A stretch of DNA of 37,827 nucleotides, taken from positions 1-37,827 of the forward strand of contig JAGWHI010000009.1 of NCBI GenBank assembly GCA_028866905.1, given 5' to 3'. The first letter of the stretch is position 1. Every line of letters starts with the position of its first letter. The notes beneath the pieces were generated by a model, which was given only the letters and a program-made list of their open reading frames with translations, searched no databases and was not told the origin of the DNA. Below are positions 23,240 through 28,481 of the stretch, in pieces. The position numbers were made by a program, and so were the translations under genes. Source of the stretch: Microcaldota archaeon (GTDB lineage: Archaea; Micrarchaeota; Micrarchaeia; Micrarchaeales; Micrarchaeaceae).

Positions 23240-24370
23240 TCAGAATATCCCGAAGAGCCTCTTCTTCGAATCCGAGTCCAGATCGCCGAACCTTTTCATC
23301 AGCTCCTTCTGCTCCGGGGTGAGCTTCTTCGGTATCTCGACGGCCACATCGACAACGTGGTCCCCGACACGGGAGCTGTTGAACCGCGGAAGGCCCTGGC
23401 CCTTGAGGACTATCGTGCTTCCGCTCTGCGTTCCTGGCTCGATCTTCACTTTCGATTTTCCCCTGAGCGTCTGCACCTCCGCCTCGCCGCCCAGCACAGC
23501 TACGTAAAGCGGGACGCGAAGCTCGGAGATGACGTTGTCGCCGTCTCGCTGGAAGCCGCGCTCGCCCGAGACGCTTATGTCTATGTACAGGTCCCCGGTG
23601 TGGTCCCTGCCGTAGTTGCCCTGGCCTGCCACCCTGAGCCTTGTGCCGTCAGCCACGCCCTTAGGTATGGTAACGTCTATGGTGTTTTCCGATGTTGTGT
23701 GCCCGGAGGCCCTGCACTTAGAGCATGGGTCCTCTACCGACTTGCCCCTGCCCTTGCAGGTAGGGCATGTCGTTATCGTCTGTATTATCCCGAACGGGGT
23801 CCTCTGCGTATTCTTAGCCTGGCCGGAGCCCCTGCACGTTGCGCACGTGGCTATCTTGGATCCAGGCTCTGCGCCGGACCCGCCGCACCTGTCGCATTTT
23901 ACCACATGCCTGACGTTTATCTTCTTGTGCGTATCCTCAAGCACGTCAGACAGCTTCAGGTTCACATCATCTAGAAGGTCGCCGCCTATCTCGCCGCGCT
24001 GCACCCGTCCGGCAGACGGGAAGCCGAAGAGGTTGTTGAACATGTCGTCCGGGCCTCCGCCGAAACCCCCGAAGTCTATGTTTATCCCCATGCCCCTGAA
24101 TATCTGGTCGAAGTCGAAGTTCCTGAATATGTCCTCCTCTGAGAACCTCTGGCTGAAGCCCTCGGGGCCGAACGTGTCGTACTGCTTGCGCTTTTGCGGA
24201 TCACTGAGCACTGCGTAGGCCGCATTTATCTCTTTGAACGACTCCTCAGCCTCCTTCGTTTTGTTCCTGTCGGGATGGTACTTCAGGGCGAGGTTGCGGT
24301 ATGCTTTCTTTATCTCGTCAGGGCTTGCGCTCTTGGCTACGCCCAATACCTCGTAGTAGTCCCGTGCCAT
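23240..24370 (-). CDS. dnaJ: Chaperone DnaJ (type I Hsp40)
   Basis: DnaJ (376 aa) delivers unfolded clients to DnaK and stimulates its ATPase. The domain order is canonical: J domain with HPD (residues about 33-35), G/F-rich linker ([11 protein letters not shown]), four zinc-binding repeats ([32 protein letters not shown]), then the client-binding barrels and dimerisation tail. It is the last gene of the heat-shock operon, 9 nt after the dnaK stop. Confidence 0.97.
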
Positions 24371-24379
24371 CCCGAATCA

Positions 24380-26245
24380 TCACTTTTCGACTTTGAAGTT
24401 CGCGTCTGTGGCCCCAGCGCCTGGCCCTGGGCCTGCGCCCTGGCCCGGGCCCGCTCCCTCTTCGCCGCTTGGGCCTTGGCCCTGGCCTGCCTGCTGCTGG
24501 CCCTGCCCGTACATGCTCGCGCCGACCTCCTCGAGCGACTTCTTCAGCTCCTCCATCCTCATCTTGATGTCGCTGTACTTGTCGGCCTTTATCGCGTTGC
24601 TGAGGTCGTCCTTGGCGCGGTTTATCCTCTCGACAACCTGAAGCGGTATCTTCTCCTTGAACTCCTCCAGCGTCTTGTCTGCGGTGTATATCAGCGCCTC
24701 GGCGTTGTTCTTTGTCTCGACCTGCTCGCGCAGCGCCTTGTCCTGCTCCTCGAACGACTTCGCCTCGTTTATCTTCTGGTCGATTTCGCTCTTGTCCATC
24801 TTGTGCGGCGCGACGATGTCCATGCCCTGCGACTTGCCGGACGCCTTGTCCTTGGCGTTCACGTGCAGTATGCCGTTGGAGTCTATGTCGAACGTCACTT
24901 CTATCTGGGGTATGCCCCTCTTCGACGGAGGAATGCCGGTCAGGCGGAACCTGCCGAGCTCTATGTTGTCCTTGGCCATTGCTCGCTCGCCCTGGACTAT
25001 GTTGATGTCCACGCTTGTCTGGAAGTCCTCTGCCGTGGTGAACACCTGCGACTTCTTTATCGGTATCGTTGTGTTCCTGTCGATTATCCTCGTGGCGACG
25101 CCGCCGAGCGTTTCTATGCTGAGCGAGAGCGGAGTGACGTCCAGGAGCACTATGTCCTTGACCTCACCGGTCAGCACCCCGGCCTGGACTGCGGCGCCCA
25201 GGGCAACGGCTTCCATAGGATCCACGCCGCGCTCTATCTTCTTGCCGAGCAGCTGCTCGACGTACCTCTGCACAACAGGCATTCGCGTAGGTCCGCCTAT
25301 CATTATTATCTTGTCTATGCCCGCGGGCTCGAGCTTAGCGTCCTGGAGCGCCTGCATCACAGGCTTTGCGGACTTCTCGACTATCGGGACTACGAGGCTT
25401 TCCAGCTTCGCCCTGCTGAACGTGTACGTGAAGTGGAGCGGGTTGCCCTTGGCGTCCTTCGCGAGGAACGGCAGGTTTATCTCAGTAGACAGGACGTTCG
25501 AAAGCTCTATCTTAGCCTTCTCCCCTGCCTCCCGCAGCCTCTGCATCGCCTGCGGGTCGGACTTCAGGTCTATGCTGTTCGCGCTTTTGAATTCCGATGC
25601 CAGGAACTCCACTATCGTGTTGTCCATGTCCGTGCCTCCGAGCTGCGTGTCTCCGCTTGTGGAGCGCACCTCGAACACGCCGTTGCCGAACTCCATGATC
25701 GTGACGTCGAGGGTCCCTCCGCCCAAGTCGTAGACCAGTATCTTCATCTCCTTGCCCAGCTTGTCAAGGCCGTAAGCGAGCGCTGCGGCGGTGGGCTCGT
25801 TGACCAGCCTCACGACCTCCAGGCCGGCTATCTCGCCCGCGTCCTTTGTGGCCTGTCGCTGGTTGTCGTCGAAATATGCGGGCACTGTTATGACGGCCTT
25901 CTTCACCTCCTCGCCCAGGAACTGCTCCGCGTCGTGCTTTATCTTCTGGAGCAGCATGGCGGAAAGCTCCTGCGGCTTGTAGTCCTTGCCGAATATCTTG
26001 TACACGTAGTCTGTTCCCATCTTCCTCTTGAAAGCGCTGACCGTCCCCTCCGGATTGGCTACGGCCTGCCTTCTCGCAGGCTCGCCTATCAGCCTCTGGC
26101 CGTCCTTGGTGAAAGCCACATAGCTGGGGAAGGCCTTGCCGTACAGCGACGTCCCTTCGCTGCTGGGTATTATTGCTGGGCGCCCGCCCTCGAGTACCGC
26201 AGCTGCGCTGTTAGATGTGCCCAAATCTATCCCTATTATTTTCAT
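24380..26245 (-). CDS. dnaK: Chaperone DnaK (Hsp70)
   Basis: Hsp70 of 621 residues. The ATPase domain opens with [12 protein letters not shown] and contains [24 protein letters not shown] and [11 protein letters not shown]. The substrate domain contains [14 protein letters not shown] and the helical lid. The C-terminal 50 residues are a Gly/Pro/Gln-rich tail ([19 protein letters not shown]) and lack the EEVD end. ATG 26245 matches the family start; a GTG nine nt upstream directly abuts the grpE stop in the same frame. DnaK is patchily distributed in archaea and is usually explained by ancient transfer from bacteria. Confidence 0.97.
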
Positions 26246-26254
26246 TTCAATCAC

Positions 26255-26833
26255 TTATTCCTCGGTTTTAACATTAACATCAGCATTTTCTTTTTCCTTT
26301 TCCTGGGCCTTGCCATCGGATACTATAACCGAGGCCGGCCTTATCATCATGTCCTCTAGCATGTACCCCTTCTTCACAACTTCCAGTATGGTGCCGCGCT
26401 CTGCTCCGTCCTCGCGCATCATCACTATCTCGTGCCTGTAGGGATCGAATGTGCCGTCGACATTCACCTCGGTTAGGCCGTCCTTCTTGAGCGTGCCGAT
26501 GAAATTGGAATACAGCATCTCTACGCCCTTGAGCAGGTTCTTGTCCTGCGTCCCAGACATTGATATCACAGCAATCTCGAACTCGTCTATGATAGGCAGC
26601 AGGGACCTTACCAGCTCCGCCTTTCCTAGCGCCTCGGCCCTCTCCATGTCGGCCTTGGTGCGCTTCTTGTAGTTGTCGAACTCCGCTGCGATCCTAAGCA
26701 TCTTATCCTTCATCTCGCTGTATCTTGCGTCAGTATCCTCCTTGGTTTCGTTGACGGAAGCGGCATTTGGACCGGCGACTTCGGCCTGCTCAGCGTTCTG
26801 CGCTTCGTCCTTAATCTCTTGATCGTCTGCCAA
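26255..26833 (-). CDS. grpE: Nucleotide exchange factor GrpE
   Basis: GrpE (192 aa) releases ADP from DnaK. It has a disordered acidic N-terminus, a long coiled-coil helix (residues about 38-90), the LLPIIDEFEIAV dimer region, and the C-terminal beta domain with FDPYRHEIVMM and VVKKGYMLEDMMIRPASVIVS. The start is TTG, directly after the TGA of the upstream regulator in the same frame, with GGTGA five nt before, so translation is coupled to the regulator. Confidence 0.95.
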   Translation of the reverse strand: MADDQEIKDEAQNAEQAEVAGPNAASVNETKEDTDARYSEMKDKMLRIAAEFDNYKKRTKADMERAEALGKAELVRSLLPIIDEFEIAVISMSGTQDKNLLKGVEMLYSNFIGTLKKDGLTEVNVDGTFDPYRHEIVMMREDGAERGTILEVVKKGYMLEDMMIRPASVIVSDGKAQEKEKENADVNVKTEE

Positions 26834-27268
26834 TCAATCACCGCCCCTCAGCCGTCTTGGCTGGCGTGGGGATAGCATTATGCGCTCGAACTCCTCTGCA
26901 ACATGGTGGAGGCGCTTCATCTCGCGGTCTATGTCGTACTCGAGCTCCTCTATCGTCTTGGACAGCTCGTTGGCGCGCAGGTGATACCTGCGTCCCTTTC
27001 TGACCAGGAGACCCGCATCGATGAATCTGTTTAGGTGGTAGATGAGGGTGCTCCTAGCCAGGTGAGTCTCGAGATCAGCGTTAAGCTGCGAACTTGACAG
27101 CCCGTCCCCGTTGCCCTGGTTCAGTATGAAGCGCTTTAGTATTTGCTCCTCTATGTTGTCATTGTCCTTGCCGTTGGAAAGGTCGAAGACCTCGCAGAAC
27201 CACTTTATCATGCGGTCCGGGTCGCCGTCGTTTGGCATGCCGACTACCTTTATGACAATCCTTTCCAT
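26834..27268 (-). CDS. Winged-helix regulator heading the chaperone operon
   Basis: A 144-residue protein with an N-terminal segment (MERIVIKVVGMP), an ArsR-type winged helix at about residues 50-105 (SSSQLNADLETHLARSTLIYHLNRFIDAGLLVRKGRRYHL) and a long C-terminal coiled coil that probably dimerises it. First gene of the regulator-grpE-dnaK-dnaJ operon, so it is the natural candidate for its heat-shock control, analogous in position to bacterial HrcA and in fold to archaeal Phr-like regulators. ATG 27268 is about 27 nt from the TATA box, giving a leaderless mRNA. A 13-bp palindrome lies just upstream of that box. Confidence 0.82.
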   Translation of the reverse strand: MERIVIKVVGMPNDGDPDRMIKWFCEVFDLSNGKDNDNIEEQILKRFILNQGNGDGLSSSQLNADLETHLARSTLIYHLNRFIDAGLLVRKGRRYHLRANELSKTIEELEYDIDREMKRLHHVAEEFERIMLSPRQPRRLRGGD

Positions 27269-27290
27269 GCAGGTATTATGATTAGAAAAG

Positions 27291-27319
27291 CTTAAATACT
27301 TTGCTGTTCTTGTCAAGAA
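27291..27319 (-). promoter_or_regulatory. Promoter and palindromic operator of the heat-shock operon
   Basis: AGTATTTAAG (minus strand, 27291-27300) is the TATA box. A perfect palindrome TTCTTG-T-CAAGAA spans 27307-27319, starting 6 nt beyond the TATA box and so overlapping or flanking the BRE position. This is where a dimeric winged-helix protein would block or help TFB/TBP binding. A second AT-only palindrome, TGATATATATCA, lies at 27348-27359 and could be an additional promoter. Confidence 0.55.
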
Positions 27320-27359
27320 ATTGCTGATTTATCGAAAATAAGTTGTTTGATATATATCA

Positions 27360-27761
27360 TCAGTCTATTAGCCGCTTTGTAAGGAGGGCAGGTATCAGAA
27401 AGTCCTTCTGGCTGTTTATCAGCTCGCCCTTTTCGCCCTTGTATCTGGAATCTACCCACATCGTCTCCTCTATCTCGGGATCTATGGACCTGAGATCGCT
27501 GTGCGCCTCTATTAGAAAGAAGTGCAGCCTTACCAGGGTGTCGGTCTCTATAGGGGTTATGTTGTCGTAGTCTGCAAAGAACTTTGCGCCTGTTGGTTCT
27601 AGGCCTAGTTCCTCCTTCACCTCACGCAAGACGCACTGCTCCGCGGTCTCCCCTTTCTCCACATGGCCGCCGGGCAGAGTCCATATGTTCCTTCCGGCAT
27701 TCCTTACCACAAGCAGCTTCCTGTCACGGATTATCGCCGCTACAGAGACATCTTTAACTAT
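27360..27761 (-). CDS. NUDIX hydrolase (start codon uncertain)
   Basis: A small NUDIX pyrophosphohydrolase. The full Nudix box is present, GGHVEKGETAEQCVLREVKEELGL (given here in pieces: GGHVEKGE, then REVKEELGL), after the strand VSVAAIIRDRKLLVV. It would hydrolyse a nucleoside diphosphate linked to another moiety, such as an oxidised nucleotide or sugar nucleotide. The family start lies near ILIVKDVSVAA, but no ATG, GTG or TTG is in frame there. ATA at 27761 overlaps the upstream rhodanese TGA by one base (TGATA), exactly where a coupled start would sit. GTG 27710 is the fallback but would remove the first strand. Confidence 0.8.
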   Translation of the reverse strand: MVKDVSVAAIIRDRKLLVVRNAGRNIWTLPGGHVEKGETAEQCVLREVKEELGLEPTGAKFFADYDNITPIETDTLVRLHFFLIEAHSDLRSIDPEIEETMWVDSRYKGEKGELINSQKDFLIPALLTKRLID

Positions 27762-28087
27762 CAGAATATCTCCCCGACTATCGCGGTTATGCCTCCCTTC
27801 AGGTTCAGCGAGTCCACACCGTAATTCTCCTTTATCGACTCCGCCACATACCTTGATGTTCTGCCGTGGTAGCACATGAATATCCTGCCGGTGTATTTGC
27901 CGGCCTCCTCCTTTCCGCCTATGACTATGCGGTTGGGGCTCGCGGCCTCTATCGCTTCCGGCTTGAGATCCAGGAGCTGGCGTATGTAGTCGACAGGCTC
28001 CCGGCCGAGCCATACTATCTTGGAGCGGCCGCTACCGATAAGCTCCAGCGCCTCGTTGATGTCGACCTCCTTTATCTCGTTCGCCAT
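27761..28087 (-). CDS. Rhodanese-like domain protein
   Basis: A single-domain rhodanese of 108 residues with the active-site loop CYHGRTS following the FM strand; the cysteine can carry a persulfide, so sulfur transfer or phosphatase-like chemistry is possible. The N-terminus has the typical EVDINEALELI segment. ATG 28087 is chosen: a TATA element centred near 28129 leaves a 15-nt leader. It is followed by an overlapping NUDIX gene, suggesting a two-gene operon for metabolite housekeeping. Confidence 0.83.
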   Translation of the reverse strand: MANEIKEVDINEALELIGSGRSKIVWLGREPVDYIRQLLDLKPEAIEAASPNRIVIGGKEEAGKYTGRIFMCYHGRTSRYVAESIKENYGVDSLNLKGGITAIVGEIF

Positions 28088-28124
28088 GCAACCACGGTTC
28101 GGCATTATGCTTATCGGCAGCACT

Positions 28125-28134
28125 GTATTTATAC
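28125..28134. promoter_or_regulatory. Palindromic TATA box serving both strands
   Basis: GTATTTATAC is nearly self-complementary. It is centred 26 nt before the plus-strand ATG at 28155 (leaderless) and about 42 nt before the minus-strand rhodanese ATG at 28087 (15-nt leader). Confidence 0.55.
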
Positions 28135-28154
28135 CAGTTTGTAGATTCATACGC

Positions 28155-28481
28155 ATGGCAGGCAGGAAAACAGCAGGGGCGAGCAGGGCGGTCGAGTACG
28201 CGCTGTGGGCTGTAAGCGCGCTGCTGGTGACCTACTACTTCTCGCTCGGCTACTCGCTAATAACACACAACTACATCATACAGTTCGGCAACAGGCTGGG
28301 TACGCTGGACTTCGCTGAGTCGGTGACAGCGCCGCTCTACATCGTCGGCGCGATACTCCTTACCGGCTGGATATTCTTCACGACATCCAGATGGCCGCTG
28401 AAATCCGACTTCGTTCTCAAGATACTGGTCTGCTTCACTGTTGTAAGCGCGGTGGTGATATGGTTCTACTCTATGATATGA
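28155..28481 (+). CDS. Small membrane protein, three predicted helices
   Basis: A 108-residue protein with a basic N-terminus (AGRKTAGASR) and three hydrophobic helices: about residues 14-34, 58-78 and 86-107. The loop between the first two contains GNRLGTLDFAES. The N-in orientation follows the positive-inside rule. No family is recognised. It overlaps the next small membrane protein gene by 22 nt, so the two are probably made together and may form a complex. Confidence 0.78.
   Translation: MAGRKTAGASRAVEYALWAVSALLVTYYFSLGYSLITHNYIIQFGNRLGTLDFAESVTAPLYIVGAILLTGWIFFTTSRWPLKSDFVLKILVCFTVVSAVVIWFYSMI

Follow-up and report, generated by a model that had tools for sequence, protein, structure and literature searches.

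The chaperone operon and its promoter

The window analysed here, meaning the whole 37,827-nucleotide stretch of DNA, carries on its minus strand a tightly packed four-gene operon, regulator-grpE-dnaK-dnaJ. The features of the operon and its promoter are as follows.

26834-27268, minus strand: regulator gene, encoding a 144-aa winged-helix protein with a C-terminal coiled-coil-like helix; ATG at 27268, after the TATA at 27298
26255-26833, minus strand: grpE (Pfam GrpE, E 8e-38, above cut-off)
24380-26254, minus strand: dnaK, bacterial-type (Pfam HSP70, 1.5e-216; NCBIfam equivalog TIGR02350 above cut-off)
23240-24370, minus strand: dnaJ (Pfam DnaJ, DnaJ_C and CXXCXGXG; NCBIfam equivalog TIGR02349 above cut-off)
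27291-27298, minus strand: TATA-like box TATTTAAG, aligned with the TATA boxes of relatives
about 27299-27305, minus strand: purine-rich BRE-like stretch, immediately upstream of the TATA-like box
27307-27319, no strand: 13-bp palindrome TTCTTG-N-CAAGAA (TTCTTGTCAAGAA on the plus strand), exact sequence match
27311-27348, minus strand: proposed operator array AAACAA-N7-TCGATA/AATCAG-N7-TTGACA, four half-sites, 38 bp, from the relatives' matrix and shuffles
27311-27316, minus strand: promoter-proximal half-site TTGACA, the strongest in the window (5/5 consensus positions)

A sequence-only reading of this DNA had described a regulator-first grpE-dnaK-dnaJ operon with a perfect palindrome beside its promoter. 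The operon is real, with GrpE, DnaK, and DnaJ all passing their Pfam cut-offs, and the 13-bp palindrome is present as claimed, the TATA-like box lying 8 nt downstream of it on the minus strand. Further upstream, beyond a Nudix gene, there is a 131-aa minus-strand ORF (27761-28156) without a Pfam match.

The regulator protein

When searched against Pfam, the regulator matched only HTH_20, below threshold (E 0.0047). A structure model built from a 110-sequence alignment was confident (pLDDT 92.1, pTM 0.81); these sequences were picked, by similarity and by hand, from the 155 available (154 relatives plus the window). The modeled winged helix consists of helices at residues 39-49, 59-65, and 72-85, the last being the recognition helix, and strands at 88-91 and 94-97, and it is followed by a 31-residue C-terminal helix (102-132) that could serve as a dimer coiled coil.

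The protein thus has the fold of a helix-turn-helix plus beta wing, with many winged-helix structural matches at Z of about 8-9, and its structural neighbours in fold searches were generic winged helices alone. No Foldseek match had an E value as low as 0.001; rank 15 was 1stz, which we take to be HrcA of Thermotoga, with a TM-score of 0.41 by query length. Among solved structures, the ArsR-like 2oqg gave the best profile match (E 8.4e-7), and members of the regulator family matched several HTH families weakly and no single one. The description "ArsR-like", given earlier to this protein, is therefore right for the winged-helix fold but not for the family: the score against ArsR (PF01022) was 12.5 bits, below the family cut-off of 22, and the weak matches are spread over HTH families.

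Linkage to chaperone genes in Micrarchaeota

Homologues of the regulator were found in 55 of the 60 near genomes and in 210 of the 295 genomes of the phylum. We examined 67 loci with a regulator match in the same family as the window (f1) and 55 in the sister family (f2). A co-directional grpE gene comes after the regulator at 66 of the 67 same-family loci, the exception (L046) ending at a contig edge, and at all 55 sister-family loci. Two loci, L150 and L155, gave no regulator match with the window query; L155 and the genome of L150 (G024) were recovered in later searches. Sister-family promoter counts below use 54 of the 55 loci, L151 being left out because no start was found.

The arrangement varies in other families. 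In f7, grpE lies near the regulator in all 27 confident loci (L194-L220), head-to-head in 26 and co-directional in one, and at some of these loci hsp20 sits between the two. The regulator is head-to-head with hsp20 in f11 and f4, and it forms regulator-grpE-dnaK in f15, once with a divergent hsp20, while the divergent f1 genome G024 has both grpE-dnaK and hsp20 at the regulator. At confident Micrarchaeota matches, then, the regulator adjoins grpE-dnaK and/or hsp20. As hsp20 adjoins the regulator in several distant families, the regulator may have targeted Hsp20 before DnaK or in addition to it. The hsp20 neighbours in distant families are at L154/L197, L215, and L219, and at L155, L156, L157, L254, and L255. 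Three very weak homologues (L221-L223) are without chaperone linkage and are probably other winged-helix proteins, possibly a paralogous family.

The 13-bp palindrome

The palindrome had been put forward as the operator of this system. TTCTTGTCAAGAA occurs as a single exact copy in the 885,590-bp genome, and the one copy with one mismatch falls inside a reading frame that resembles V/A-type ATPase subunit A (named by eye). The window contains 11 perfect 6+1+6 palindromes, and after dinucleotide shuffling of the 110 nt upstream, one is also present in 156 of 3000 sequences (5.2%); taken alone, the palindrome is not clearly more than chance.

Conservation in related promoters had been set beforehand as the check on this proposal. 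The best match to the palindrome was 7-9/12 in the 67 same-family promoters and 7-10/12 in the 54 sister-family promoters; these counts resemble those of shuffles in the former and are somewhat above shuffles in the latter, an excess that we attribute to the sister family's own TTCAA/TTGAA operator. None of this amounts to a retained palindrome in the 121 relatives, and it was therefore rejected as a conserved operator. A second perfect palindrome, TGATATATATCA (27348-27359), abuts the operator array and is situated right where the upstream Nudix gene ends; it was not seen as a conserved element.

A conserved candidate operator in relatives

What the promoters of relatives do share is the motif T(G/T)TCAA-N7-TTGA(C/A)A, upstream of TATA. 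A score of at least 11/12 against TKTCAA-N7-TTGAMA was reached by 51 of the 67 same-family promoters, versus 0.75% of shuffles, and by 45 of the 54 sister-family promoters, versus 0.41% of shuffles. The usual same-family operator is TGTCAA-N7-TTGACA-T(A/T)TCAA, which ends upstream of BRE/TATA; half-sites 1, 2, and 3 are strong (at least 4/5 letters in 90%, 91%, and 90% of the 67, respectively) and the fourth is weak (15%). The sister-family operator is TTTCAA-N7-TTGAAA, close to the BRE. Three same-family promoters are off consensus (L025, L094, and L095). L094 and L095 have AACAA/TTGTT-type repeats in place of the usual half-sites, a possible further operator change.

Of 85 family genomes, 26 contain exact TGTCAA-N7-TTGACA, with 27 sites in total, and every one of these sites is at the regulator (reversed control, 2). 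Allowing one mismatch in TGTCAA-N7-TTGACATNTC gave 46 distinct sites in 45 of the 85 f1 genomes (reversed control, 3), and all 46 lie 50-96 bp upstream of a regulator match. In f2, 31 of 31 distinct sites are at the regulator (31 of 69 genomes; control, 0). An extra f2 site, at the end of G170:C4, was discarded as a second target, as it represents two overlapping contig ends with the same site. In f7, 14 of 15 sites are at the regulator, the other (G105:C8:2830) lying among other genes and away from any detected regulator; the control gave 8 matches, so exclusivity is weaker there. Because nearly all sites are at the regulator, these sequence searches suggest that, in f1 and f2 at any rate, it serves a single locus. 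One genome bin, G278, holds two regulator copies (G278:C44 and G278:C76), each with its own exact operator; the bin could contain a mixture of two strains or of two organisms.

Distant families have the half-site TNTTAA in place of TNTCAA, for example TGTTAA-N7-TTAACA in L226, and no clear operator site was found in f15 promoters. Positions 73-74 of the protein are S/T then T/S in 81 of 81 sequences of f1 and f2, and A/G then A/G in 28 of 28 sequences of f7, f11, f15, and f27. The apparent change at the start of the recognition helix in parallel with that of the half-site (TNTCAA to TNTTAA) is suggestive, and the correlation may be one event on the tree. In the head-to-head families, most clear cases have the best site some 15-30 nt away from the start codon of the chaperone gene, probably inside the chaperone core promoter.

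The proposed operator array of the window

To look for this operator in the window, a matrix was built from 63 same-family relatives, with the window excluded, and both strands were scanned (75,606 positions). The matrix omits four of the 67 same-family loci, which scored under 12 or were too short, and the leave-one-out set omits three of the 67; TATA and array positions were taken from a motif-anchored alignment of relatives. The two top-ranking positions of the 75,606 are 27311-27335 on the plus strand (12.0 bits) and 27324-27348 on the minus strand (11.1 bits), while the best score elsewhere in the window is 2.0 bits, and 0 of 3000 promoter shuffles reach either 12.0 or 11.1 bits. The signal resides in halves 2, 3, and 4 in the window and in halves 1, 2, and 3 in the relatives; as the array is two-fold symmetric, the window array can be taken as the family operator read in the opposite direction.

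This operator is degenerate: its 12.0 bits compare with a leave-one-out median of 28.5, only 2 of 64 relatives scoring lower, and a strict operator pattern with up to two mismatches found 7 sites in the window's own genome (control, 4), none of them at the chaperone operon. The distance from the end of the array to TATA is about 11-12 nt in the window's family, which places the array upstream of the BRE. The palindrome overlaps the array only at half-site 4, the promoter-proximal TTGACA. Judged by sequence, the 38-bp array is most likely the candidate operator in place of the palindrome.

Comparison with known heat-shock regulators

Bacterial HrcA is a winged-helix regulator with a long C-terminal domain; it is encoded first in operons of the hrcA-grpE-dnaK-dnaJ type and has an inverted-repeat operator at its own promoter, CIRCE (TTAGCACTC-N9-GAGTGCTAA). 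The window shares with it the regulator in first place in a grpE-dnaK-dnaJ operon and an inverted repeat at the regulator's own promoter, but its 144-aa protein has a coiled-coil-like tail instead of the long C-terminal domain. The HrcA domain (PF01628) was found in none of 41 genomes, including that of the window; of 14 named genomes searched as a control, 7 contained it. The best CIRCE match was 10/18 in the window promoter and 8-12/18 in the 121 relatives, weak matches at most in all 122 promoters. Given the lack of HrcA from the 41 genomes and of CIRCE from the 122 promoters, this is not an HrcA system, though by analogy it probably works like HrcA/CIRCE. The autoregulation of HrcA/CIRCE type that had been proposed is supported by the comparison (linkage, and an inverted repeat upstream of TATA), with the exception of the palindrome as its operator.

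ArsR/MarR-type regulators share the winged-helix fold, but the window protein lies below the Pfam cut-offs and its family is spread weakly over several HTH families. Phr of Pyrococcus and HSR1 of Archaeoglobus are also winged-helix proteins; neither was among the matches listed in the profile and fold searches, which distant kinship could escape. According to a review, Phr and HSR1 are the only regulators identified for the archaeal heat-shock response, and both are described as repressors (PMC9133787); both are assigned to arCOG01684 (PMC5852551). They resemble the proposed system as archaeal autoregulated heat-shock regulators (PMC9133787, PMC10653856, and PMC5852551), and hsp20 adjoins some relatives of the window regulator. 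The regulon given for them in PMC10653856 is one gene for an sHsp and one for an AAA+ ATPase, with DnaK not among them, whereas the window regulator is linked to a DnaK operon. The HSR1 site is CTAAC-N5-GTTAG (PMC9133787), in contrast to TNTCAA-N7-TTGANA in the families of the window regulator; the search for this HSR1 site, and for that site only, gave weak matches at most: 6/10 in the window, 9/10 in one, and 8/10 in six of the 121 relatives.

Proposed mechanism and alternatives

We consider it highly probable, from the comparison of promoters, that the regulator binds the array at 27311-27348, and likely that this winged-helix protein, encoded at the head of the chaperone operon, controls its own operon through the array upstream of BRE/TATA. 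The basis for autoregulation is the conserved chaperone linkage, an operator with fixed N7 spacing, and sites almost only at the regulator locus. A dimer, as the C-terminal helix and the two-fold operator suggest, would bind the inverted-repeat array just upstream of BRE/TATA and, as long as conditions are normal, would repress by obstructing TFB/TBP or polymerase. Protein-folding stress would release it, possibly, as with HrcA, through titration of chaperones or through lability to heat. By adjusting transcription of its own operon, it would set the chaperone supply.

The protein is rather more plausibly a repressor than an activator, because the head-to-head site lies in the probable core promoter and because Phr and HSR1 are described as repressors in PMC9133787. 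As an activator, which we regard as unlikely, it would bind the same array upstream of the BRE, recruit TBP/TFB, and raise chaperone expression under stress. Archaeal activators use a position upstream of the BRE, and the array of the window's family, ending where it does about 11-12 nt from TATA, occupies such a position; the single site of the head-to-head families, within or beside the chaperone core promoter, argues against activation, as does the precedent of the two known archaeal heat-shock repressors (PMC9133787).

It is improbable that the palindrome TTCTTG-N-CAAGAA serves as an operator specific to this lineage and has taken the place of the family operator. It is perfect, genome-unique, and adjoins TATA, its centre is the array's strongest half-site TTGACA, and the relatives compared all lie outside the window's genus; yet those 121 relatives do not conserve it, 5.2% of shuffles hold such a palindrome, and its outer letters contribute nothing that is seen in relatives, while the 38-bp array fits a matrix built without the window. 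Very improbable is a reading in which some other factor binds the conserved motif, or the motif is a promoter element of a general kind, and the winged-helix protein acts elsewhere: the link between protein and motif does come from sequence comparison, but the motif is at the regulator locus and almost nowhere else, accompanies both regulator copies of G278, and changes together with the recognition helix.

Implications

No earlier description of this regulator was found in the literature searched, most subscription papers being outside its scope. On balance, we lean toward a Micrarchaeota-wide (class-level) regulator family that is dedicated to DnaK/Hsp20 and has in essence a single target in each genome. 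Such a family would have switched between co-directional and head-to-head arrangements, and its residues at recognition-helix positions 73-74 (S/T-T versus A/G-A/G) would vary in step with a single base of the operator (TNTCAA versus TNTTAA); to our knowledge, it would be the first for an archaeal Hsp70 system. The array provides an exact sequence for testing. If the reading is true, the DnaK system, which is a chaperone set of bacterial type, would have a regulator of its own in an archaeal lineage with tiny genomes, in contrast to the small heat-shock protein and AAA+ ATPase genes of the Phr/HSR1 regulons (PMC10653856), and control like that of HrcA would have been built from a new operator and a protein that is either unrelated or related in fold alone.
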